Source of the DNA: Diprion similis
Lineage: Eukaryota > Arthropoda > Insecta > Hymenoptera > Diprionidae
NCBI RefSeq assembly: GCF_021155765.1
Contig: NC_060105.1
Span: forward strand, 16,277,001-16,341,000
Direction: 5' to 3'
DNA: 64,000 nt
Of this stretch, positions 13,581 through 59,228 are shown piece after piece. The stretch's first letter is position 1. Every line of letters begins with the position of its first letter. The position numbers and the translations under genes are program-made. The notes beneath the pieces were generated by a model. It was not told the origin of the DNA. It saw nothing but the letters and a program-made list of their open reading frames with translations, and searched no databases.

Positions 13581-16487
13581 TTACTGCCTTCTTTTTATGT
13601 ATTCCAATAGTTTTCTCTTATATTCGTTTATATTTGTTGCTTCTTTTACATCCGCTGGTAGTTTATTATACATCTCAAAACCAGTATATGTTACGCATTT
13701 CTGTCCGGCAGTCGTCTTTCGGTACTCAATGTTTATGTTTTTCTTTTGTCTCGTATTGTAGTTATGTGTTTCCCCCACCATCCTTATTTGTTCTCTTAAA
13801 TATCTCGGCATTGTTCCTCTCATAATTTTGTATACAAATAGGCATACATTATACATGAGTCTTTGTCTTATTGTTAAAAAGTTAACTGCATTTAGCATGT
13901 CTCTCACTCGCGTATATCGATCACATCTTAGAATTGCACGCATCGCTCTGTTTTGTACTTTTTGCATGTTTTCAATCCATTCCGCACTAGTATTTAATAA
14001 TAACGTGTTACAGTACTCGAAATGTGGGGATATTATAGCTTTATAAATTGTCATTAGCGTATTACACGATAAGTGCCTATTTAGTCTGTATAAAAAATTT
14101 ACTTTCTTAGATGTCTTCTTAACAATAAACATTGCTTGCGCATTAAAACTCAGCTTATTATCAATTATAACCCCTAAATATTTTATTTCTCTAACCTCTT
14201 CTATTTGTATACCTGCTATCTTAAAATTACACTTATTTTCTATACCTAGTTTTCTTGGATCGTGAATTATCATGCTTTTGGTCTTTGTTGTATTTAATTT
14301 TAGCGAGTTACTATTCATCCATTTTACCACCCTTTCTAAATCATGATTCAGTTTCTGTTCAATTTCCTCAGTATTTGTACCACTTATGAATATAACTGTG
14401 TCATCCGCAAACATTTTGCATTGACAGAATTCAAGTTGTCTCGCGAGGTCATTTATATATAATATAAACAGTAGTGGCCCAAGAACGGAACCTTGTGGCA
14501 CTCCGAACTTAGTTTTCCTTTTTTCTGACATTTTGTTTCCATATTTCACCTGTTGTGTCCGGTTTTCTAGGTACGATTTAATCCATTTCCATGTTGTTCC
14601 CATTATCCCATAATTTGCTAGCTTCTGTAATAATAACCGTCTGTTTATAGTTTCGAATGCCCTTTTTAGATCCAAGAAAATCACTCCAATCAATTTACTT
14701 CTATCTAAGCTTTTTCTCCATATTATTATCGTATTTTGTAGTGCCGTTTCACATGAATAATTTCTCCGGAAACCCGATTGTTCATCTGTTAATATATCAG
14801 ATCTTTCAATGTACTCAATCAGCTGATTTTTCGCTGCTTTTTCTAATATGCTTTCGTACAGTGGTAGCATATTTATCGGTCTGTATTCTTCTGCTTTTAT
14901 TGTTTTGGTTATTTTCGGAATTGGTATGATTGTTGACGTTTTCCAGTTATTCGGAAAAACGCCGTCCCTGAGGGATTTATTGATTAGTTTCACCGTAACT
15001 TCTTCTATGCTATTCCATGCCATTTTTATTATTTTCGTCGTTATACCTTCTTCCGTTCCCTTCTTATCTTTCATATTTTGTATTATCTTACGTACTTCCT
15101 CTCGTGTAACTTCTCTGAATTCGCTATGTTTTGGCTCCTCCTGTCCACGTCTTTCCAATCTTACTTCAGTTATGTTTACGTGTTCATTTCCGCCTACGAT
15201 ATCCTCTATACTCTTTAGGAAGAATTCATTAAATTTGTTTGCTATCTTCTCTTCATCTTTTTCCTTCTCCCCATTAAAACTAATTTCTTTTGGTATTTCG
15301 TTTTTCTTTTTACTCCCTATTACTGATTTTATTGTTTTCCACATTTTTTTGGGGTCAGTTTTGACTGAGTCAATTTTTTCTTCGTAATATTTTCTTTTAC
15401 TTCTTCTGAGCGTTGCCACTGCTTCGTTTCTCAACCTTCTATACTCTAACCATTCTTCTCCCACTTTTGTATTTTCCATTCTTGTCGCCCTCTTATATGC
15501 CTCGTCTCTCCTTCTACTAGCCTCACGGACTTCTTCCCCTATCCACGGTTTATCATTCCATTGCGCCTTTTTTCGTTTTTTTACAATAGGTGCTATCTTA
15601 TCTATATTTTCTACTATACATTGTACTAGATTATTTGCGAATTCATCTACACTATCCATCTCGTTACATTTTCTGTCAATTTCTCTCGCTATCGTCTCTT
15701 TAAAATTTTCATTATCAACATTTGTGAAGTCTCTTGTATAAAATTCTATTATATTATTATCCGTTTTGTTAGTTTTCCTTACGTTAATTCTTATTATGTG
15801 GTGATCCGAAATTTTTGGTGTTTTGTGCACTTCTGTCTCTACTTTGAAATTTGAAAATACCAGGTCTATTATTGTTTTGGCTTCCCCTTGTATTCTTGTG
15901 TAGTCTCTCACATATTGCTTTATTCCCATACACTTTAGTTTATCTATTAACCTCTTTGAGTATTGGTTTTCTTTACTCACGTCAATGTTAAAATCTCCCG
16001 TCACTATAATATGCCCTATGTCCACTATTTTATCACATTCTTTTATAATTTCGTCGATAAATAATCCATCACTCTTACTCGGTGAATGATAAACGTTACA
16101 GATTATTATTCCTTCGTATTTCCCCATTAGCTTTATTGTACAGATCCATGCGTTTTTTTCCACAGTTTTTATCGTAATTACCTTATATTTAATATCTTTT
16201 TTTATGTATGTTAACAATCCCCCTGTTCTACTACTATAACTATCGCATCGTACGGTATTGTAGTTTTGTATTTCTATTTCAAAATCCTCTATTTCCTCTT
16301 TTACATGTGTTTCGGTCACGCATGCTATTATCGGTCTATTTCTTATTATCAAGTTTTCGATGTTGTCTTTGTTATGTATATATCCTGCTGCATTTAGTAC
16401 CAAGATGAACTCATCTTTTCCGTTTGTTATTTTCCCTGTTCCTAGTTCCTCTTTATGGGCAATTAATCTCCTTATATTCGAGCACAT
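13581..16487 (-). CDS. LINE ORF2: endonuclease-reverse transcriptase
   Basis: A single open frame of 968 codons. The N-terminal 230 residues are an APE-like endonuclease (TETHVKEE, GGLLTYIKKDI, ICNVYHSP, VTGDFNIDV, then SDHHIIR at its end). The RT follows at about residues 480-760, with YRPINMLP, EQSGFRRNYSCETAL, LDLKRAFETIN, GVPQGSVLGPLLF and the catalytic FADDTVIF. The C-terminal part ends with a maturase-like tail. Length and domain order fit CR1/jockey-group LINEs; the exact clade needs a tree. No stop or frameshift is visible, so the enzyme may still be made if the missing promoter is supplied. The ATG at 16487 is the first in the frame after the ORF1 stop at 16518. Confidence 0.9.
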   Translation of the reverse strand: MCSNIRRLIAHKEELGTGKITNGKDEFILVLNAAGYIHNKDNIENLIIRNRPIIACVTETHVKEEIEDFEIEIQNYNTVRCDSYSSRTGGLLTYIKKDIKYKVITIKTVEKNAWICTIKLMGKYEGIIICNVYHSPSKSDGLFIDEIIKECDKIVDIGHIIVTGDFNIDVSKENQYSKRLIDKLKCMGIKQYVRDYTRIQGEAKTIIDLVFSNFKVETEVHKTPKISDHHIIRINVRKTNKTDNNIIEFYTRDFTNVDNENFKETIAREIDRKCNEMDSVDEFANNLVQCIVENIDKIAPIVKKRKKAQWNDKPWIGEEVREASRRRDEAYKRATRMENTKVGEEWLEYRRLRNEAVATLRRSKRKYYEEKIDSVKTDPKKMWKTIKSVIGSKKKNEIPKEISFNGEKEKDEEKIANKFNEFFLKSIEDIVGGNEHVNITEVRLERRGQEEPKHSEFREVTREEVRKIIQNMKDKKGTEEGITTKIIKMAWNSIEEVTVKLINKSLRDGVFPNNWKTSTIIPIPKITKTIKAEEYRPINMLPLYESILEKAAKNQLIEYIERSDILTDEQSGFRRNYSCETALQNTIIIWRKSLDRSKLIGVIFLDLKRAFETINRRLLLQKLANYGIMGTTWKWIKSYLENRTQQVKYGNKMSEKRKTKFGVPQGSVLGPLLFILYINDLARQLEFCQCKMFADDTVIFISGTNTEEIEQKLNHDLERVVKWMNSNSLKLNTTKTKSMIIHDPRKLGIENKCNFKIAGIQIEEVREIKYLGVIIDNKLSFNAQAMFIVKKTSKKVNFLYRLNRHLSCNTLMTIYKAIISPHFEYCNTLLLNTSAEWIENMQKVQNRAMRAILRCDRYTRVRDMLNAVNFLTIRQRLMYNVCLFVYKIMRGTMPRYLREQIRMVGETHNYNTRQKKNINIEYRKTTAGQKCVTYTGFEMYNKLPADVKEATNINEYKRKLLEYIKRRQ

Positions 16488-18491: not shown

Positions 18492-21400
18492 CTATACAGA
18501 TGGTGTAATTTTTACATGTTCCCAGGGTAACGTGTCTGTACTACCAGGTAGTAAATATCGCTCATCATCGTGATGGCTTAAAGCAAGTTTCAATTGTCGA
18601 ATTGAATAGACTTTATGCAAATTCGACCGAATGGTTCGCTGCGTTTTTGAAATACTCTCGTGCTGTTTAAGGCAGTCGAGATAATTTTCGAAAGTTATTT
18701 GATTGTTCAATACATGATTTTTCACACCTTTTGCTCTCTTCGCGATCTTATTATCATCCATTCGCGTCGCATACATTTTGGATCGCAATCCAACAAATTC
18801 AGTCATTATTTCGCCATTTCTCTCATCCTTCATTAGTCCTACAACTTTTTTGTTGACCTCGGGAATTTTATAAATATTATCCGCAGGATAATTGCTGGTG
18901 TCGAATCTGTCAATATTGTCTCGAATGAATTCATAAACGTCACAAGATTTGATTTCGTAAATACGACCATCCGTATCGGTATACATTAATTTACAATTTG
19001 ATTTCAACTTTGGTAATATAAAAGAATAGTGAAAGTCGTAGACACAAATTTTGGATAAATCTAGAATAGCGATTCCGGCGTAAATTGGCTTGTTAAATAT
19101 CACTTCGAGCCTGTTCAACTGTATCGCAACGAAATTTTCACCGAATATACTTCAACTGTGGAAATTCGGTCGCGATATCAGTGCTTTGGCACCGCAACGT
19201 CCATTCCATTTTTGCGCTAACTTGACGTCGGAATATTTACGAACATTTTCCATCGTTTTACCGAATACCGCGTTGTTCATCAGTTTGTATAGATCCTGTT
19301 CCAATTTGTTGGCACTTTTGGCTCTTAACGCCGTGTTCAAATCAATATAACTTTTCAACCATGCTGATTGTTTGAATTTCAATATTCTATGAATTTTACG
19401 CAATATCAAACCGTTTTTCAACCACTGTTGCAAATTACGATAATGTATAACAGAGCGTGTCTTGTTCTGCAACGTAGCTGAAAGTTTCGGAGTTTTTCCA
19501 CCAGGGGGTTTTTGATGATTTGGACAAAAGGATAAATCTTGATGTAAAATGTGAACATTGGTGGGGTATTCTAAATCTACCTCCAATATGTATCCATCAT
19601 CAGACTCTTCATCGACGCGAATGAAATCAAAATCATGTACTCGGTGCACCCATTCAAAATTTTTACAAGGCAGGTACTGAGACATTGCTCAACCATACAA
19701 ATTATTTACGTCTAAGTAGAGCAATGATTTGGTTTCCAACTGCGCATTGTAATCTGTCATATATTTATTATTCGCTATACTGTGTCGATTCGAGCATTGA
19801 CTCAATCCTCCACGCAAGCCTCCTTCAACGAACAGCAGCATATCAACATCCGTGAGCAATTCCAACTGAATTTCAGTGTGGAAAAGCATGCAATCCCACG
19901 TAAAACCGTGTAAGGTAAAGTAGTGTGCCGGATCGAGCTTATATATTCGGAGGCAATTATCGCAGAAATTTTGAAAGACGTCTGCGAGGAGCATTACGTC
20001 GACTTTCAAATACAAATCACTATACTCGCCCAATGTTGTGATATTAAAACTGTACCAAACGTTCTGTGCATGAGCGTAGTCTTCGTCTTTAATATGTTGG
20101 TCGTTCAATACGTTATAAAATGATTCTTTCGAGGGTAATGAGCGTTCGTTGAGTCTGTCGGCTTCAGTCACGTAATCATATGGAAATATCCCTTTGCGGG
20201 TTAGAAGATTGAATTGCGAATCTGTGGCTTTAGGGAATTGGCATTTTAAATTCGTTAAATCATTGTGCCGCAGGTAAGAACTTAGTTCGGCTAAACTCGA
20301 ACTCATATGCCGACGAGAATCGATGAATTGAAGTCTTACGGCGAGGCTGTGAAACGTCTGGGTGAATGCTATGTACTTTTCTTTAGTAATTGGTAGAACG
20401 CTGAGCGAGGATGATTTAATATTAGCCAATTCACCGATTATGAAGTGTGCATCGTAACCACTCAAGTTGTGGAATACAACGGGTACGGTGCGATCGAGTT
20501 TGTAATTCAGATTACAATTTGAATGTGCAGGCCCGCGATATAGTCCTGTAACATGACAATGATCCTTCACGCGATCATTTGGATGCACAAATTTTAGCTC
20601 GCAAATGTGACATACTTCAGCGTTTTCGAATTCAGTCTGTTGTTGACCAGACAATTGATACATAGGTTTCTTTTGATTGAAGTATTCAGCTACCCTAACT
20701 GCGATTCCGTGTAATTGATGGGCTAACCATTTCTGACAATCGACACCTCGATAGGAATTGTAGTATGATAGCGACTCATCGTGACTACATTTAAAATAAT
20801 AACCTACGCTGTGTGGTACATGTTTCTGATATATCTTCGTATGCGATGATTCAGAAGACTGTGAGGAATTCTCCAACAAACACTCAAAATCTGCGTAAAC
20901 TATGTATGGTACTTGCATTTTGTTCGAGTAATTCTCAAACTTCAACCACTTGTTGGACTGATCTGGAAGCGTGAGTTTACAAGGTGTATCTGGACTGCAA
21001 TCAAGCCTGTGCGCGAGCAATTTTGCTTCGGAGTAGAAAAAATGTAAACATCGATTACAAACATGGATTGCATTCGTACGTGCATTCAATTGATGATTGA
21101 CTAGTCGCGATAAATTTTTAATCCAACAGAAGTGTGTTCTTTCATGGGAGAATTCATCATCAAGGTTTTCATCGTGTAGCATGAGCAAGTTGATGTGTTC
21201 GATATTTGGATTTTCATGCCGACTGATGAGTAGTGGTAAGACTTGATGCCGCTTGCTCCGTTTCTCCAGAATATATACATTCACGGAAATATTATTAAGT
21301 TTTTCAAATTTCGGTATGTCATTTAATTTTGTAGGGAATTTGATACCAGTGAAATTGAATACTTGATTGTAATGGGGGTAGGAAGTTACTCGATTTGCGT

Positions 21401-22227
21401 TTGTTGCAGCAGGATGTCGAGCGGATACGCAAGCCCAAGCAAAAAAAGCGTTATCGGCATTTTGAACATTAACCACGGCTTTTTTAACCTTAATATCGCT
21501 CGGCAAGTCCATCCACATCGAACCTACCAGCGGCTCATACTTGTTAATGTTAACTAATAAATTATCTATACTAATCAAGGCCCAGCCACTATCGCGCTCC
21601 TGAAATTCTTCGATTTGAGCCAGTAGAGGCAACATACTCGTCGTACCATTCCGCCAGATTCGAGGTTGTTTGGAGAGTAGCGTTCTTCGTATGAAAGAAT
21701 TTTGTTTCGGATTTCTCATCCAGAACAAAAGTTGCAGATAGCGTGGTGTTGACTTTCAGATGGTGATGTTGGCGAAGCAATGTGTTGAGTTTGTCGAAAA
21801 TAACGGTGTATGCAGCTGTGAGGAATAGTTTTAGATCGCTGATTCGAAAGTTGGTGATTACCCCGGTGATCAAACGCTTCTCGAACGCAGATTCCAATTC
21901 ATCCCATTGAATGGCCGGAGCGTCGTGTGAACCACCTCGAATTGAAGGGTTTAACACAGCACGTTGAGAGGTCAATTTAACAATAAGAGTCTGAATCTTT
22001 CGTTTATCGGCAAAACTGGTGGTTCGATCTCTGTAAAAGTCGTTAAGGGTTTTTAGAAGTTTGAGACTAATAGTGTTCCACTGCGAAGCGAGATCTTCAT
22101 TGGAGTCCGTAGTGAGTCGCTGGTACGCAATGTCTAATTTATCAATTACGGTATGAAACTCGTCGAACCGGTTTGCCATTGTGCCTCCAAAAAAAGTTTC
22201 GAAAATTATATGAACAGCACTCGTCAT
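18492..22227 (-). pseudogene. Polinton protein-primed DNA polymerase B (nearly full length)
   Basis: Read leftward from 22227. The N-terminal part has the DLKLFLTAAYTVIFDKL and RQHHHLKVN blocks typical of insect Polinton PolB. The exonuclease part has PYIVYADFECLLE. Cys/His pairs (CNRCLHFF, CHICELKF, DHCHVTG) lie in between. Polymerase motifs follow: [36 protein letters not shown], with the usual S replaced by G. Breaks: a frameshift near 21640, TGA at 19686-19688 (TGG expected) and TGA near 19127 (CGA expected). It would replicate the element from a terminal protein. It is convergent with the integrase (49 bp between ends), a common Polinton arrangement. The region 22227-21770 may also be a separate N-terminal domain. 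Confidence 0.88.
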
Positions 22228-41734: not shown

Positions 41735-43541
41735 ATATAGCATGTGAAGGGCCCTTAAACCAACGTTCATTTACGTCCAAGGTCACGGTTGTGCATCTTG
41801 TCGTATCATCGGCCGGATTCTGTTCCGACGGGACCCATCTCCACTCAGAAGTTTCCGTGAGTTCACTTATTTCACCTAATCGGTGGGACACAAAGGCTTG
41901 ATATAACCGGGGTTCTGTTTTAATCCATAAGAGGACTGTGCGCGAATCCGACCAGAAAACGCGCCGATCTACTCGAAATTTGTGTTCAGATTCTATGGTT
42001 TTGGCGAGACGGCTCGCTATCGCGGCTGCTTGTCATTCAAGGCGGGGGATCGAGAGTGGTTTCAACGGGCTGACTCTGCTCTTCGACGCTATGACGCTCG
42101 TTTGGAACAATCCGTTCTCGAGTCGGAACCTCCAGTAGCCCACCGTCGCGTATGCTTTTGCACTCACGTCAGAGAAAACGTGTAATTCTATCGATTCAGC
42201 TTTGACGTCAGACGCCAGATAGTGCCTTCGTATAGAGCATCGGCTGATCTTCGGTAGATCGCTGATCCATGCTTGCCACGCGGAAAATTCGTTGTCGGCT
42301 AGGATGCTATCCCACTGAATACCGCTGACCCATACGTCCTGCATTATGATTTTAGATCTGATCAGGAACGGTGCTAGGAAACCCAGGGGGTCGAAGATAG
42401 ACATTATAATTTTTAGAAATTCTCTTTTCGATGGTCGGCTCAACCCCGTGAGTATCTCGTGCGGGATTTTGTTCAACCCTATGTTGAACGTGAACGAGTC
42501 CGAGAGGGTATTCCATTGTAAGCCGATGGCTTTTTCGTTTTCTTTGGCGGGATCGGGCGTTCCGAGTACGACTGTTCCGGAGGCTCGATCGGAAGCCGGT
42601 ACGGCATTTAATACCTCTGGATTGTTGCTAGCCCATCCGTGCATCTCAAAGCCCCCCTGCCGTTTAATCTCTATAATTTCCCGGATCACCTTGATCGCAT
42701 CATTCGCATCGTCCGCAGATTCGCAGCTGTCTAGTAGGTCGTCCATGTAACAGTTGTCTACAATGGCCATAGTTGCTTCAGGCATGGAGTTTACGAATTC
42801 CTTGGCGTTTAAGTTCTTGATATATAAGGCGCTACACGGTGAGGATTTCGCGCCGAATATAAGCGAGGTCATAGCGTACTCATCTGGTGATCGCTGCCTA
42901 TCCCGCCCTCGCCATAGGAAACGCTGCGCGTCGCGATCTTCCTCTCGCACTTTGATTCGCAGGAACATATCTCTTATGTCCCCTTTAAACGCGACCGGGT
43001 GTTGTCGAAAGCGGATTAATACTCCTAACAGGGGTTTGAGAAGGTCTGGTCCTTTTAACAGCCGATCGTTTAGGGACACCCCATGTGATTTTGCCGCGGC
43101 GTCGAATACTAATCTGACTTTTTCGGGCTTGTTCGGATTAAAGACACCGAAATGAGGTAAATATCACCGACGGTCCGCCTCGGTTCTCTTGACGATTTTC
43201 TTCGCGTAGCCATTCTCTATGAATCTTTCCATTTCCCGATAATATAGCGCGGCGTAATGCGGATCGCGATCCAGTTTTTTCTCCAGATTCCATAGTCTTT
43301 TGAGAGCGGTTTCTTTGCTACTGGGGCAGTTTTTGTCATCGTTTTTCCACAGCAAGCCCGTTTCCCACGAAGTTCCGACACGACGGCTTGTGGTTTCCAA
43401 TAGTAGGTTGGCTCTTTTCTCACCGAGGCTGGTTTTAACCGTTGTTGAAACCCCCAGCGCGTCTTCTTGAAAATACGATTTGACCATACCGTGGAGTTCC
43501 GCGTCTGCGCTTGGCCAGTGGAAAAATATCCGATTGCTCAT
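41735..43541 (-). pseudogene. BEL/Pao pol: RT and RNase H, broken
   Basis: Read leftward: 43541-43164 is the RT start (HYAALYYREMERFIENGYAKKI). 43079-42033 carries the palm (FKGDIRDMFLRIKV, RFLWRG, SLIFGAKSSPCSALYI and the catalytic NCYMDDLLDS) and the BEL-type SIFDPLGFLAPF...DVWVSGIQWD. An in-frame TGA near 42031 interrupts SIPRLE/QAAAIASRLAKT. The same frame then continues as RNase H (FWSDSRTVLLWI, EWRWVPSEQNPADDTTR) to about 41735. Gag and protease are missing: the RT starts about 115 bp from the primer-binding site. A 1-2 bp break lies near 43120-43160. Confidence 0.85.
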
Positions 43542-43676: not shown

Positions 43677-44200
43677 TGTTCGTCATGGGATGGGGATTAA
43701 CGGATTACACAGAACTGGTTCATCAACGATCGTATTTATTTCCAACCTCAGGTAGTATTCTAGCCGCTCGCGCTCGCGCACATATACACACACACACACA
43801 CACCTATTGCACGTAGCCAGAAATCTGCAGACAAGTGCTCTTGCCCGTGGCTGAGACCAGACTGACGACTTATCGGTATCCGACGCTCCCTCCGATACCA
43901 GCTACACAGTGTTTACAAGTTTTTGTTTGCCTACTAAGCCCTTCGTGGCGTTCATCAAGACCTGATTCGGTACAGAGGTGGGAACGGTCTACGTATCGAC
44001 CCTATGTCGACACGGTCAGCCGTCCCGGCCCTCCTAGGTCTAGCTGCTGGTCGCCATGTGCGACCTGTCGACCCTATGTCGACACGGCTAGCCTTCTCGG
44101 CCCTCCTAGGTCTAGCCGCTGGTCGCCCTGTGCGACCTGTCGGCCCTATGTCGACACGGCTAGCCTTCTTGGCTACCCAGGAAACGAAAGAAGGCGAAAT
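43677..44200 (-). repeat. Putative BEL/Pao 5' LTR with 72-bp tandem repeats
   Basis: The LTR end lies next to the primer-binding site. Inside are a short (CA)n run (43786-43803) and a 72-bp tandem repeat: units at 43997-44068, 44069-44140 and a partial one from 44141 to about 44172. The right limit is not defined because no second LTR is in the window. Confidence 0.5.
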
Positions 44201-50342: not shown

Positions 50343-50625
50343 TGTTACACTTTTAGCGTAACGAGTAAAACGAGGGTAAGAAGCTTAGTTAGGTGAGCAA
50401 TTAAAAGGCGCTAAATGAGAAATATGCTTTGAGAAAAATGTATTTGGGGTAAAGAACGTGTTATCAGCTCAAAGTCTGAAACAGATCTGTTTTTACAATA
50501 ATAGCGGTTGACGCAGCAACCTTATTCATTCGATGACATAAGAAGACTTAGTTTTCTTGCGTCACATGCCGACTACTAGATCATTAGAAAAGGGGGTAAA
50601 ACGGGTGATTTTATCCTTTGTAACA
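50343..50625 (-). repeat. 3' LTR of the complete gypsy element
   Basis: 283 bp, TGTTAC...GTAACA. It differs from the LTR at 57780-58062 by one T/C, one T/G and one A/C change. Confidence 0.93.
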
Positions 50626-50640
50626 CTACTCCCCCCTGAC
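50626..50640 (-). other. Polypurine tract of the gypsy element
   Basis: On the minus strand the sequence before the 3' LTR reads CAGGGGGGAGTAG directly followed by TGTTACAAAGG, a typical plus-strand primer site. Confidence 0.75.
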
Positions 50641-52102: not shown

Positions 52103-52714
52103 TTAATTGATTTTAATATAATTAAATAGAGGTTTAGCTATAGACTTTAAGGGCTGGTGATGAATCTCACGAATAGTTCTAGGCGATTGCAGAGGAATCT
52201 CTGTTTCTTCCTTGCGTGCAAGAGAATTAATCCGAACAAAAGAGGTTTCTGGGGAAACTCGCAAACAAACTATTAAATCTACTCCGAGTTCAGACGCTTG
52301 AGTGAGAAGAGCAGAATTTTTTCTGAGTAGATCAGCTTCGAAATCTCGAAGATTTCCTAACCTGCGATGAGTTTCGATAAAACAATCGCCGCTAAACATC
52401 GACCTTTCAATAATTTTGACAGGCCGAGAGGTTAAAAGAAGATGTCTATCATACATAACTTGTTGAACGTGATGCTGGAACTGGTAGCAATATCTATTTG
52501 GGTCTTCATACATCAATTGTAATAAGTTGACTCCGGCAACATCACGGTACTGATCGAGGGGTTCTAATAGGGTGCAAACCCGAGGGTCCGACAAGAATCT
52601 TTTAGTAAAGGTTGTCTTCCCGCATCCGATATTCCCTTCGATGATAATAGAAAGTGGCTTCTTCTTATGGAGTGAAATTCCGAAGGAGAGGTTATGTTCC
52701 CAATCAATTAAAGA
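52103..52714 (-). CDS. Deoxynucleoside-kinase-like protein captured by a gypsy element
   Basis: This would phosphorylate deoxynucleosides in the salvage pathway. The frame of 203 codons opens at 52714, directly after TTTTCTAG, and ends at TAA (52103-52105). Numbered from 52714: the P-loop EGNIGCGKTTF is at 26-36, the EPLDQYRDVAGVNLL block with the family's catalytic Glu at 51, the IIERSMFS motif at 101-108, and LIVCLRVSPE with the lid RINSLARKEE at 147-170. These are the defining motifs of the dNK/TK2/dGK family. Length is slightly short for the family (about 210-260), mainly at the C-terminus. No ATG precedes the P-loop, so the start must come from a spliced upstream exon; a TTG at 52594 would lose the P-loop. 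It starts 37 nt after the integrase stop. Confidence 0.85.
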   Translation of the reverse strand, partial: SLIDWEHNLSFGISLHKKKPLSIIIEGNIGCGKTTFTKRFLSDPRVCTLLEPLDQYRDVAGVNLLQLMYEDPNRYCYQFQHHVQQVMYDRHLLLTSRPVKIIERSMFSGDCFIETHRRLGNLRDFEADLLRKNSALLTQASELGVDLIVCLRVSPETSFVRINSLARKEETEIPLQSPRTIREIHHQPLKSIAKPLFNYIKIN

Positions 52715-52735
52715 CTAGAAAACAAGAAGACTCGA
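52715..52735 (-). promoter_or_regulatory. Splice acceptor for the kinase ORF
   Basis: On the minus strand TCTTCTTGTTTTCTAG precedes the first kinase codon: a pyrimidine-rich tract and AG. The frame is closed just upstream (the TAG itself is a stop). A donor in the 5' leader or early gag would be the partner, as for env messages of gypsy-type retroviruses. Confidence 0.6.
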
Positions 52736-52751
52736 AGTTTCTTTACTTTTC

Positions 52752-53950
52752 TCAGGGTTGATTCAAAGGTGGTCTAACCTGGGAGGATGTTCCAGGTCCG
52801 GGTGATTCCGTTCGAGTGTGTTCCTCGAACGAAGCTAGACGGTCCAGGTGTACGACCTTTTCTTTAGAGTGAGGCGTTTTTCGGATCCTGTAAACGACAT
52901 CGTTGATCCGGTTAACTATTAAATATGGACCTTCCCAGTTTCGTTGGAGTTTTGGACATTTTCCTTTCTGTCTTCTAGGTTGGAAAAGCCAGACAGAATC
53001 TCCGGGATTAAATTTTAAATCTCTAGCTCGTATATCGTAGCGAGCTTTTAATTTATCTGAAGCCATAGAAATTCTTTCTCTTGCAAAATTATGAATTTCT
53101 TCTGGGCGTTGTTGTAAATCAGAGGCATAATCTGTCTGAGGTTGAGTTTGCACGGGAACAGGGCCTTTCTCTAAATCTGACGGGAGTCGAAGATTTCTCC
53201 CCGTAAGCATACAAGCGGGCGTCTGTTTTGTCGTCTCGTGAATCGCAGATCTATAAGACAGGAGGAAAAAAGGAATCCAGGTGTCCCAATCTCTCTGATT
53301 CTGCTCTACGAAGGACGACAAATATTGGAGTAAAGTTCTATTCAGACGTTCTATCATGCCGTCAGACTGAGGATGGAGGGGAGTAGTACGAGTTTTTCTA
53401 ACCCCTAAAATTTGAGTAACTTCTTTCATTAGGCTTGACTCAAAATTTCGGCCCTGATCGGTGTGTATTTCTAGAGGTACTCCGTGTCTACAGATAAATT
53501 CTTTTACGAACGCCTGAGCTACGGTAGAGGTTTCCTGACTGGCGAGTGGAATTACTTCGGGCCACTTGGTAAAATAATCAGCGATGACTAAGGCGTATTT
53601 ATTCCCACTGTAGGTTATAGGAAGAGGACCGAGGATATCCATTGCTACCCTCTCGAAAGGAGCTCCCACGTTGTAAACTTGAGGAGAGCTTTGTCCTTCA
53701 TCTCGAGGTCCTTTCTTCGACGTGCAGACTTGACATCTCCGACACCAGTCTTCTACTTCGGCACGACATCGTGGCCAAAAATAACGATCGCGTATCTTGC
53801 CTAAAGTTTTATTCGAGGCAAAGTGTCCACCTGCAGGAGAATCGTGGTAAAGAGCAAGAATCTCTGGAACTCGATTTCTGGGAACCAAAAATTGCCACTT
53901 GATCTCTTTCAAGTCCGCGGATTCCCATTTGCGGTATAATATTCCGTCTA
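52752..53950 (-). CDS. Ty3/gypsy integrase (part of pol)
   Basis: Zinc-binding HHCC domain: HDSPAGGHFASNKTLGKI ... CRRCQVC. Catalytic core: D in ERVAMDILGPLPIT, D in EIHTDQGRNFES and E in DGMIERLNRTLLQY. The C-terminal GPY/F module reads NWEGPYLIVNRI, ending in KVVHLDRLASFEEH. About 390 residues, normal for the family. A stop (TAG, near 53979) in the linker before it separates it from RNase H; the expected residue is Trp. The domain itself is intact. The ATG at 53912 is internal to pol and not a real start. Confidence 0.92.
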
Positions 53951-56134: not shown

Positions 56135-57714
56135 CTAGTTTTTTGAGATAGCCATGGTCGAGGTGCCGGGATTAGAATTCTGATGACTATCTTCCCTGGC
56201 TACTTTACTATTTCGCCAATTATTAGCGTTTGAATTTGAGCTTTGCGTCTGAGACTCTGCTTTGCGTTTTAACGCGAAACAGTGATTGGCGTCATGGCCT
56301 TTTTGGTTGCAAAACAAGCAAGTGAGGGTAGTAAACCTATTGTCTACTCTCTCATTGACGTACTGAGGTCTTCTAATGTGGCTCTGAGAAGAACCGCGAC
56401 TATTCTTATCTTTAAAATTTCTATTATTATTGTAATTTTTATTATATTTCAGGTTATGAGACTTGGTCTCTTCCGAGCGACCACCCCCTTTTCTATAGAG
56501 GTGTTATCATCCACCTGTACTTGGCGGAGTTTGCCCGCTCCAAAATATTGTTTTCGCATGGCCTCCACCTCGAGAGCTTTGGCCATTGCCTCTCGTAAGG
56601 AAGTTAAACCCGACGTTCCAACGGCCATTTTAACTTCCGGGTCGTTAATAGCGTTTAAAAATGCTTGTGTCGCTAAAATATTACGTGACGGTTCGTGGTC
56701 TGGCAAAGCTATTCGCGACAGTCGCTCTATGTCTTGTCCGAGAGAGGCAAGGTCTTCGTCTCGTCCTTGTCTCCTAGTTTGTAATTGAGCAGTATATAAT
56801 TTTGTCAAATGATCATTACCGTATCTTAATTTTAACGCGGAGCTGAGCTTTTCGAAGTCAGAAATTTCTTCTTCTGACAAAGCTGTCAATACGTTCAAAG
56901 CTGGCGTTCTAAGACAAGAGGCAAGGCTATGAGCTTTCATGGCGGAGTCCCATTGATTATGTCTAGCAATTGTATTGAACTGTCTTTCATATTCAGCCCA
57001 CGGAATTTTTCCGTCAAAAATAGGCGGTTTTAACGCACAGATAGGTTTTTCACATGTTTGAGAGGGGACTCGGAATACTCTTTGATTATCTAATTGATTT
57101 GATTGTGGGAAATGAGGTTGAGCATTTGATGGTGGCTCGGGAAAGTAGGTCTTGGTTATTACTCTGGGTCTCGAAATCGGAGAACAGTCAAGTTCTCTAA
57201 TAAAAGGAACAGACCTTGAATTTCGAGGAACTTGGTCCACTAGGATTTGGCGAGGAGAAGTCCGGGGTGTCGGGATAGGAACCATCCTGGGAGTGGGTAC
57301 CGGGGAAACTCTGGGAGTAGCGACCGGTTCTCCAGACTCCTGAGCTTGATTTTTAGCTTGAAGAGCCGACACTGTGGACTGGAATAGTTCGATGATTTGT
57401 GTTTCTGAGCGTGTCTGGGCCTCGCGATCCAGTCGACGCTGTTCTTGTTGTTCCTGTAGAAGATCCATCAGATGCTGCTGATGACGTTCAGCTGCTTCAC
57501 GTTGTTTCTCTGTGGCTTCCTGTTGAGCCTGAAGAACCTTCAGAAGGTCTAAAGCGGTGACGGTGGGCGTCGAAGGTGTTGTAACAGGGGTCACCGTCGG
57601 TGCAGCTTCTGGAGCCGCAAAAGTTGGCTCGGGAACTTGTAGGTCTCCTCTCAGTGAGGGGCTATCTCCACAACTTTCCCGGCGGCGTGAGCGGGTCGAA
57701 CGACTGACACTCAT
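56135..57714 (-). pseudogene. Ty3/gypsy gag, complete copy, one frameshift
   Basis: The ATG at 57714 starts MSVSRSTRSRRRESCGD, as in copy 1. A Gln/Glu-rich coiled coil (LLKVLQAQQEATEKQREAAE) occupies residues 60-130. A Pro/Arg linker and the capsid region (PWAEYERQFNTIARHNQWD, KLRYGNDHLTKLYTAQLQ) follow. The frame stops at 56449. The nucleocapsid with one knuckle CLFCNQKGHDANHC continues in another frame to the stop at 56135. The switch lies at the run AAAAGGGGG (about 56484-56492), where a one-base slip is the simplest cause. Confidence 0.88.
56138..56144 (-). promoter_or_regulatory. Putative -1 frameshift site A AAA AAC (complete copy)
   Basis: The last gag codons read TCA AAA AAC TAG. The heptamer A AAA AAC is a classic X XXY YYZ slip site. 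The -1 frame continues into KLDSDDLGG and the protease. It matches 2170-2176 in copy 1. Confidence 0.7.
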
Positions 57715-57760: not shown

Positions 57761-57779
57761 ATCCCGATTCTGACACCAG
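57761..57779 (-). other. Primer-binding site, tRNA-Leu-like (complete copy)
   Basis: TGGTGTCAGAATCGGGATT on the minus strand, one base from the 5' LTR end, identical to copy 1. Confidence 0.65.
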
Positions 57780-58062
57780 TGTTACACTCTTAGCGTAACG
57801 AGTAAAACGAGGGTAAGAAGCTTAGTTAGGTGAGCAATTAAAAGGCGCTAAATGAGAAATATGCTTTGAGAAAAATGTATGTGGGGTAAAGAACGTGTTA
57901 TCAGCTCAAAGTCTGAAACAGATCTGTTTTTACAATAATAGCGGTTGACGCAGCAACCTTATTCATTCGATGACATAAGAAGACTTAGTTTTCTTGCGTC
58001 ACATGCCGACTACTAGATCATTAGAAACGGGGGTAAAACGGGTGATTTTATCCTTTGTAACA
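57780..58062 (-). repeat. 5' LTR of the complete gypsy element
   Basis: 283 bp, paired with 50343-50625. On the minus strand it begins TGTTACAAAGG and ends GTGTAACA before the primer-binding site. Confidence 0.93.
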
Positions 58063-59228
58063 GTATTAAATACAACTTAAAGTCATCCGGTCGAATTTTT
58101 ACGTACAAAGGTAAAGGATATGAATATACGGCTCTCTATCTTTATTCGTTTATGAAATTGAATCGTTCACAGAGATAATTTTTCATCTTTTCGTCATACT
58201 CTCGGCAACAGAAGAATTACAGACGTTTGAGTTTTACTGTTACGTGGTAATTTCATAATTTATTGACGGATATAATTTCCGCAATATTAAGGTTATTCGA
58301 AATTTCAAAACAGTTTACAATCAAAAAATATATCAGATCTTTCGACGTATCAGATATAAAAAAAAGAGAAAGCAAAGCAAAGCAACAAAAAACGAATCCC
58401 TAATACGTTTACGAAAAAAAAATTGAAAACGTCATACTGATGAAATGTGATCATACATATAGACACAAATTGCGTACAGAATCGAACATATATATATAAA
58501 ATATATGTCTGTAGTGAAGTATTTCTACATAAGAAAATTTTTTTTCCTTCCCGGCAGGTTGAACAATTCCATTTAGGTATAAAAATACACCGATTCAAAT
58601 TTGAGCCATTAATATTGATATCCAGAGGTTGCGCATGGCACTTTTCTATTTTTCACAAGAATAAAATGGGAGAAATGCTTTTACACATTCTGATTTGAAT
58701 AACTAGCTAACGATGCGTTGTACAAAAAATTCACAAACGTATTTTTTGAAAATATTCAACACTTCACAAAATACCTTGTATTATTTTCTGTTAAATTCAC
58801 TCGTTGAAAAGTTATTTTAGTTGGCTTGAATAACTTTTGAAATAGCTGAATAATAAATAAATAAAAATGATTCAGCATATAATATTAACATAATTTTTTT
58901 GCAGAGCGTCCAATTCTCTACAAAAGTATGCTTTTGAATCTTACGTACGACGCATCGTGAGCTAGTTACAAAAATCAGAACGAGCAAAAACCATTGTTTC
59001 CAGGTAATTCTTATGTAAATCTGAAAAGTACGATGCGCAACCTCCGAATGTTAATATTAGGAGATCAAACTGTGACGGGCATATTTTCAAACATAAATGA
59101 AACTTTTGGACCAGTTCGAAATTTTTGTTTTCATCGAAACACGCCAATATAAATACTGTATATTCCAACGGTCGTAGTCGATGACGTATCACCCGGTGTC
59201 CGGGCGATCTTGCCACATTCAACCAAGA
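58063..59228. other. No gene recognised; holds an inverted repeat
   Basis: AT-rich intergenic sequence. The frames 58350-58698 and 59240-58962 lie in the arms of the inverted repeat and have no domain. Confidence 0.5.
58555..59117. repeat. Inverted repeat with about 170-bp arms
   Basis: 58555-58725 aligns with the reverse complement of 58945-59117 (for example GAGGTTGCGCAT in both, AACTAGCTAACGATGCGT against GTAACTAGCTCACGATGCGT). Identity is moderate. A 220-bp AT-rich spacer separates the arms. MITE-like. Confidence 0.7.

Follow-up and report, generated by a model that had tools for sequence, protein, structure and literature searches.

In retroviruses and in the errantiviruses of Drosophila, env is the third gene after pol and is expressed via a spliced subgenomic RNA. 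Large DNA viruses often carry nucleoside kinases, which raise the dNTP supply. Enzymes are also found as cargo of LTR elements. According to the accessible parts of the respective papers, LTR retrotransposons of bdelloid rotifers have captured an enzymatic ORF3, encoding a GDSL esterase or a DEDDy exonuclease, and produce spliced messages (PMC5408684), and dUTPase is carried by retroviruses and by fungal, rotifer and planarian LTR elements (PMC6431247, PMC2774666). The accessible part of a further paper describes that low dNTP levels limit retroviral DNA synthesis in resting cells, and that lentiviruses gain dNTPs indirectly, by the action of Vpx against SAMHD1 (PMC3549941). Judged by title or abstract, none of the papers found in the open-access PMC literature describes an LTR element with a nucleoside kinase, and the word 'kinase' is absent from those texts on extra genes of LTR elements that were searched for it, including PMC5408684. 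For the genome of the sawfly Diprion similis, the open-access PMC literature yielded no paper on its transposons.

The window, i.e. the whole stretch of D. similis DNA analysed (64,000 nucleotides), contains an LTR element with a deoxynucleoside kinase (dNK) frame downstream of integrase. The comparison of this copy with its relatives makes it probable that a sawfly Ty3/Gypsy-type lineage carries a selected dNK as third gene, which would be expressed as a spliced Gag-N/integrase-tail/dNK protein and serve as a putative dNTP supplier.

Structure of the element in the window

The element occupies the minus strand and consists of the following features, from 5' to 3':

57780..58062 (-): 5' LTR, TGTTACA...GTGTAACA, with ATAC adjoining upstream; from the direct repeat and the edges read
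57762..57778 (-): primer-binding-like site, TGG immediately 3' of the 5' LTR; from the sequence
56449..57714 (-): gag frame, counted from the first ATG; from the sequence
57215..57714 (-): 500 nt of gag that would form exon 1 of the RNA for dNK, with the donor AAG/GTCTGT; from the L021 junction, donor kept in L020, L022, L023 and L028
54045..55400 (-): reverse transcriptase (RT) and RNase H frame; from Pfam
52752..53912 (-): integrase frame with H2C2, rve and p58_C; from Pfam
52779..52887 (-): integrase tail, which would form exon 2, with the acceptor GTTTACAG/GATCCG; from the L021 junction, AG in 18 of 21 copies
52715..52778 (-): inferred intron 2, 64 nt, GTTAGA...TTTTCTAG, phase 0; absent from L026
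52103..52714 (-): frame of 203 codons for the deoxynucleoside kinase (exon 3), with damaged lid and C-terminus; from Pfam, PDB sequence and fold
50626..50637 (-): polypurine-tract-like AGGGGGGAGTAG preceding the 3' LTR; from the sequence
50343..50625 (-): 3' LTR, followed by ATAT; from the direct repeat and the edges read

The element is enclosed by a direct repeat of 286 nt that is 98.6% identical (50343-50628 versus 57780-58065), which bears out the two nearly identical LTRs described in an earlier note on this DNA. The kinase frame reported there is likewise present: it is stop-bounded, comprises 203 codons at 52103-52714 (-) and contains GNIGCGKTT, EPLDQYR, GVNLL, IIERSMFS and RINSLARKEE. 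It stands after integrase and before the 3' LTR, and hence in the env position that the note had assigned to it. The end of the integrase frame and the start of the dNK frame are 37 nt apart. No env-like gene was found between dNK and the 3' LTR, where the longest stop-to-stop frame on the element strand has 123 aa, and a Pfam search with the gag frame of this copy gave no match.

Pfam detects the order RT-RNase H-integrase in the window, and the same order is present in the 13 LTR-paired copies described below, seven of which have a 3' LTR edge that could be located by motif. The 4-bp flanks are identical in four copies (L012, L013, L016 and L018) and differ by one mismatch in the window copy and in L017; the flanks of L015, of which the 5' LTR edge was mis-set, do not match. 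Judged by the LTR pair, the target-site duplication and the RT-RNase H-integrase order, which is also found in Bel/Pao elements and retroviruses, the element would be a Ty3/Gypsy-type LTR retrotransposon.

The window copy looks damaged. Its pol is broken between RT and integrase, leaving an open frame of 407 aa versus 1140 aa in five relatives. The lid residue equivalent to Drosophila Arg167 is replaced by Leu, the sole such case among 19 element kinases, and the C-terminus of the kinase differs from that of its relatives past residue ~188. In comparison with L013, L016 and L018, the closest relatives included in this test, dN/dS is 0.75-1.06 for the kinase of the window copy versus 0.18-0.47 for its RT and integrase; the kinase of this particular copy seems to have lost constraint.

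Elsewhere on the minus strand, the window contains a LINE-like element with a 968-aa frame that combines an endonuclease with a reverse transcriptase domain (13581-16487), a 679-aa frame with a match to recombination endonuclease VII that is barely past the cut-off (19689-21728; 1.7e-5) and a Bel/Pao peptidase frame (42033-43079). A 72-bp tandem direct repeat, 90% identical, lies inside an open frame at 44000-44143.

Identity, spread and evolution of the kinase

The window frame matches the dNK profile of Pfam (PF01712) with an E-value of 4.2e-30 and a score of 105.5 bits, compared to a curated cut-off of 27; two intact relatives reach 138.4 and 139.8 bits. In the PDB it matches the sequence of Drosophila dNK (E 6e-36). 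The twelve best PDB matches of the predicted fold (mean pLDDT 85.3) are also all Drosophila dNK, with TM-scores of 0.77-0.82 by query length for a model guided by an alignment of dNKs. Profile, PDB sequence and predicted fold therefore agree on the dNK family proposed in the earlier note.

The labels K33 and R167 follow the numbering of Drosophila dNK. K33, E52, Y70, F80, F114, R169 and E172 are conserved in all 19 element kinases, while Q81, R105, M69, M88 and R163 are found in 18, E104 in 17, R167 in 16 and V84 in 14 of them. Two positions deviate throughout: W57 is replaced by Tyr, and A110 by Gly, Ser or Asn, in 19/19. The roles of the residues in this comparison were taken from the accessible part of PMC11357392. 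The P-loop reads GNIGCGKTT in 14 of the 19 copies and GNIGCGKST in L027; it is altered, without the normal glycine pattern, in L022, L023, L026 and L028. As judged from these alignments, the predicted kinase of the lineage retains most catalytic residues. Among 209 homologues, 186 were motif-readable at position 57, where 182 have W, two have Y (P0002 and P0118), one has L and one has K; the string FQHH is confined to P0001 and P0118.

A genome search with the window kinase gave 75 matches, including two exons of the host dNK, a separate intron-bearing gene at C2:13551761-13552833. Near-full-length kinases are present at 22 of the 75 places, the window included, and 14 of these 22 lack an internal stop, which argues that the frame did not arise by chance. 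The analysed set of 21 copies comprises the window and 20 of the other 21 near-full-length places (C10:1352055 was omitted). An LTR pair was detected by the rule of the script in 13 of the 21 copies (90.7-99.65% identity), and all 13 contain gag, RT, integrase and dNK in the same order. The capture by the element postulated in the earlier note thus holds as a trait of the whole lineage.

A census of integrase tails points in the same direction. It scored 150 rows of 256 candidates, and its counts are lower bounds: 44 rows with at least 63% identity represent separate integrases of the lineage, eight are split pieces of these and 98 are below 60%. Among the matches listed, dNK sequence is present within 1.2 kb downstream in 39 of the 44 lineage integrase tails; the kinase extends to the N-terminus in 26, only its C-terminal part is present in 12, one is intermediate and five have none. 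A kinase piece accompanies one of the 98 more distant integrase rows listed (C1:17520174, a 60-residue match with 45% identity), which is probably a decayed lineage member. Searched with the Pfam dNK profile, the genome gives 62 places. One PF01712 match in a 239-aa frame, at C8:21707156-21707626, lies outside the element-kinase matches and may represent another host gene of the dNK family. Two NCBI proteins of D. similis annotated as 'deoxynucleoside kinase-like', P0001 and P0002, are by sequence copies of the element kinase; they were apparently entered as host genes, although they are element-borne.

Some relatives retain only kinase relics. At C14:782907 and C3:18600899, integrase is located inside pol frames of 1137 aa, and the kinase is present as a relic that has lost its N-terminus. 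A kinase relic without P-loop is also found in a gag-only set (L030-L041; 12 places fetched). The loss of the N-terminus in the two pol-open relatives and in the gag-only set indicates that the kinase is dispensable in cis. A candidate family of shortened kinases (131-aa frames, residues 100-187) was rejected: the same 12 fetched places are all devoid of the P-loop part and have the ERS motif out of frame. The one member of this type that was followed further, the L045/L050 element (C12:662300-667400), is a pol-less, gag-only element with LTRs that are 98.96% identical over 287 nt; its open gag contains a zinc-knuckle-like CX2CX4HX4C, and the kinase is present as a relic. Being devoid of pol, it may borrow both pol and kinase.

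Selection on the kinase was determined by the NG86 method over 187 codons in 19 copies, which were divided by eye into six groups; L011 and L012, near-copies of L010, were omitted. In 15/15 comparisons between groups, mean dN/dS was 0.15-0.24 at dS values of 0.32-1.27. Within groups, dN/dS was 0.33 in A, 0.23 in C and 1.17 in F, a single pair, as expected for decay following insertion. A codon model in IQ-TREE for 17 copies, which additionally omitted L010 and L015, gave an omega of 0.298, with lnL -3517.8 versus -3608.5 at omega 1 (best of nine fixed kappas). The dN/dS check across copies suggested in the earlier note therefore returns purifying selection, under which the predicted kinase evolved during the divergence of several subfamilies. 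For six copies, RT, integrase and dNK were compared directly. The dN/dS values are 0.06-0.08 for RT, 0.17-0.20 for integrase and 0.11-0.18 for dNK in five pairs with L024, and 0.18-0.22, 0.26-0.32 and 0.23-0.33, respectively, in four other pairs with L019. Constraint on the kinase is similar to that on integrase, and RT is more constrained.

The element kinases form one clade with a long stem, which is recovered in three trees (SH-aLRT 100, 100 and 97). Its neighbours change depending on whether P0118 is included. In a tree of 59 rows, from which P0118 was excluded and 35 of 94 rows were dropped, 11 of them element kinases, the clade is placed with Hymenoptera at low support (68), and neither a grouping with Diprion and Athalia (p 0.325) nor one with Drosophila (p 0.318) is rejected. 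The 60-row tree with P0118, which comes with a program warning about long branches that converge on this protein, rejects groupings with Hymenoptera (p 0.0007), sawflies (p 0.0013) and Diprionidae (p 0.0003). Thus, the tree-building by which the earlier note had hoped to trace the donor lineage confirms the monophyly of the element kinases, but the trees conflict on the neighbours of the clade. The intron-free state of the element kinase would suit a capture from mRNA.

P0118 is a 230-aa dNK encoded on a contig of 2459 nt, and is placed on a long branch as sister to the sawfly element kinases (SH-aLRT 100), with which it shares W57Y and FQHH. It is possible that P0118 is a relative carried by an element in a second host lineage. 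A scan of IMG/VR with P0118 found no relative, and a scan with the element-kinase alignment gave three matches, of which one covers the full length (28% identity) and the others ~20 residues each.

Spliced expression of the kinase

The kinase frame of the window copy begins immediately past TTCTTGTTTTCTAG, a predicted 3' splice site, and a GTTAGA-like donor is located upstream, at the end of integrase. Intron 2 between these sites measures 64 or 65 nt in 10 of 14 copies; in the remaining four it spans 56-58 nt, and the sizes are unequal modulo 3. Both ends are nevertheless in phase 0 in 13 of the 14, the exception being L023 with its shifted integrase frame; L027 and L028 each offer two possible donors, the first of which was used. 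A conserved, predicted phase-0 intron thus precedes the kinase. A start of the kinase at an ATG of its own was rejected, as none is found ahead of the P-loop in any of the 14 frames inspected; a non-ATG start is possible. Frameshifting or read-through from integrase into dNK was considered for the window copy and also rejected: integrase stops being open at 52752, and a TAG at 52717-52715 closes the dNK frame directly before its first codon.

A second pair of predicted splice sites would connect gag to the integrase tail. The gag donor AAG/GTCTGT is present in the window copy and in eight close copies, and AAG/GTCTGT or AAG/GTTTGT occurs at the matching site in L020, L022, L023 and L028, the gag of which is only 38-45% identical to that of the window. 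The AG of the integrase acceptor is found in 18 of 21 copies, and the other three cannot be aligned at that point. By arithmetic, the 500 nt of exon 1 and the 109 nt of exon 2 would place 203 codons ahead of the kinase. In L021, gag through AAG continues into GATCCGAAAAACG of the integrase tail with the frame kept, as if GTCTGT...GTTTACAG had been excised, and intron 2 is retained. LTR sequence on both sides of L021 matches (149 nt, 96.6%) and, together with the junction, makes this copy look like a reverse-transcribed spliced RNA. L026 lacks the intron 2 stretch, so that the integrase tail abuts the kinase in one reading frame. It also joins gag-like to integrase-tail sequence, with the gag part in another frame and interrupted by stops; a search for an LTR pair of L026 found none, and a plain deletion is a possible explanation for this join. 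The spliced-looking stretches span 6002-9285 in L021 and ~6117-8786 in L026, in element-strand coordinates (L026 lies on the reverse strand).

Two predicted NCBI models use some of these sites: in the protein sequence of P0001, integrase tail and kinase are fused across intron 2, and an exon of P0002 starts at the intron 1 acceptor, with the intron 2 donor used and a later acceptor. Taken together, the missing ATG, the 3' splice site, the phase-0 intron, the gag donor and the two intron-lacking copies argue for expression from spliced RNA, and dNK is probably made as a Gag-N/integrase-tail/dNK protein.

Possible function and comparison with known systems

In the preferred model, the gag ATG and the N-terminal part of gag would be spliced onto the integrase tail, and the latter in turn onto dNK, a route for which the splice sites argue strongly, and the spliced RNA would provide the kinase separately from pol. 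To judge by its enzyme family, the kinase would phosphorylate deoxynucleosides as a salvage route to dNTPs and could feed these to the RT of the element where dNTPs are scarce; the Gag part would perhaps bring the kinase into or near the particle. A wider version of this model holds that the Gag-tagged kinase from doubly spliced RNA enters particles and lets reverse transcription run in dNTP-poor, non-dividing cells, and that the P0118 sequence reflects the same kinase lineage in an element of another host, i.e. a mobile kinase clade. This version is put forward tentatively, as a possible but less likely reading.

Alternatively, the kinase could be a C-terminal extension of Gag-Pol that enters particles with pol after removal of the short intron alone. 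The phase-0 connection from integrase to kinase in 13 of 14 copies and the NCBI model P0001, which links the integrase tail and the kinase at intron 2, would suit such a protein, but the gag donor and the integrase acceptor are conserved as well and L021 shows them joined. This product is rather unlikely, and it may coexist with the doubly spliced form. That the kinase fold serves a non-catalytic role, e.g. in regulation or in the binding of nucleosides or Gag, appears quite improbable: none of the 19 copies has lost the phosphate-loop lysine, E52, R169 or E172, and 18 retain R105 and Q81. In favour of such a role are the Tyr at W57 and the Gly, Ser or Asn at A110 in every copy, the altered P-loop in four and the long stem of the clade in the tree.

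Kinase relics in some relatives and the lost constraint in the window copy are what a passenger would leave behind, a host kinase mRNA copied once into the element and hitch-hiking unused. The dN/dS of 0.15-0.24 at dS up to 1.27, the omega of 0.30 and the conservation of splice sites and intron phase nevertheless make this explanation very hard to maintain. The insertion of a host retrogene into the window copy alone, which the earlier note had named as an outcome that would refute its proposal, has nothing in its favour and is refuted: the frame is present in other copies, at the same place in all 13 that are LTR-paired, and the element kinases are one clade with support of 100, 100 and 97. 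The model of a selected third gene, expressed from spliced RNA, remains the favoured one. A retroelement with a preserved salvage kinase would permit a test, in an insect, of reverse transcription being limited by the supply of dNTPs, for which kinase-less relatives in the same genome are natural controls, and it would exemplify a captured enzyme wired into an element through conserved splicing.

The element kinase shares the fold, most catalytic residues and ~40% identity with the arthropod multisubstrate dNK (Drosophila dNK, PF01712). Unlike the Drosophila enzyme, it is retroelement-borne, has no ATG of its own and has Tyr for W57 and a residue other than Ala at A110 in 19/19 copies; the host dNK gene contains introns within the kinase, whereas the element kinase contains none. 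With the env of retroviruses and errantiviruses, it has in common its place as third gene after pol and, as deduced from sequence, its splicing, but the third gene of the sawfly element encodes a predicted enzyme. The nucleoside kinases of large DNA viruses belong to DNA viruses and not to retroelements, and IMG/VR provided a single full-length relative, at 28% identity. As far as the accessible text of PMC5408684 goes, the bdelloid rotifer elements also combine a captured enzyme gene after pol with spliced expression, as is likely in the sawfly element, but they carry other enzymes in other hosts, and the word 'kinase' is absent from that text. Retroelement dUTPase is a nucleotide-metabolism enzyme as well; in the accessible descriptions (PMC6431247, PMC2774666), it cleans the nucleotide pool and is encoded within or near pol, whereas the dNK family makes dNMPs and the element dNK follows integrase behind an intron. 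Thus, captured enzymes after pol with splicing and retroelement dUTPase are already known, and what the sawfly element adds is a predicted nucleoside kinase as cargo.
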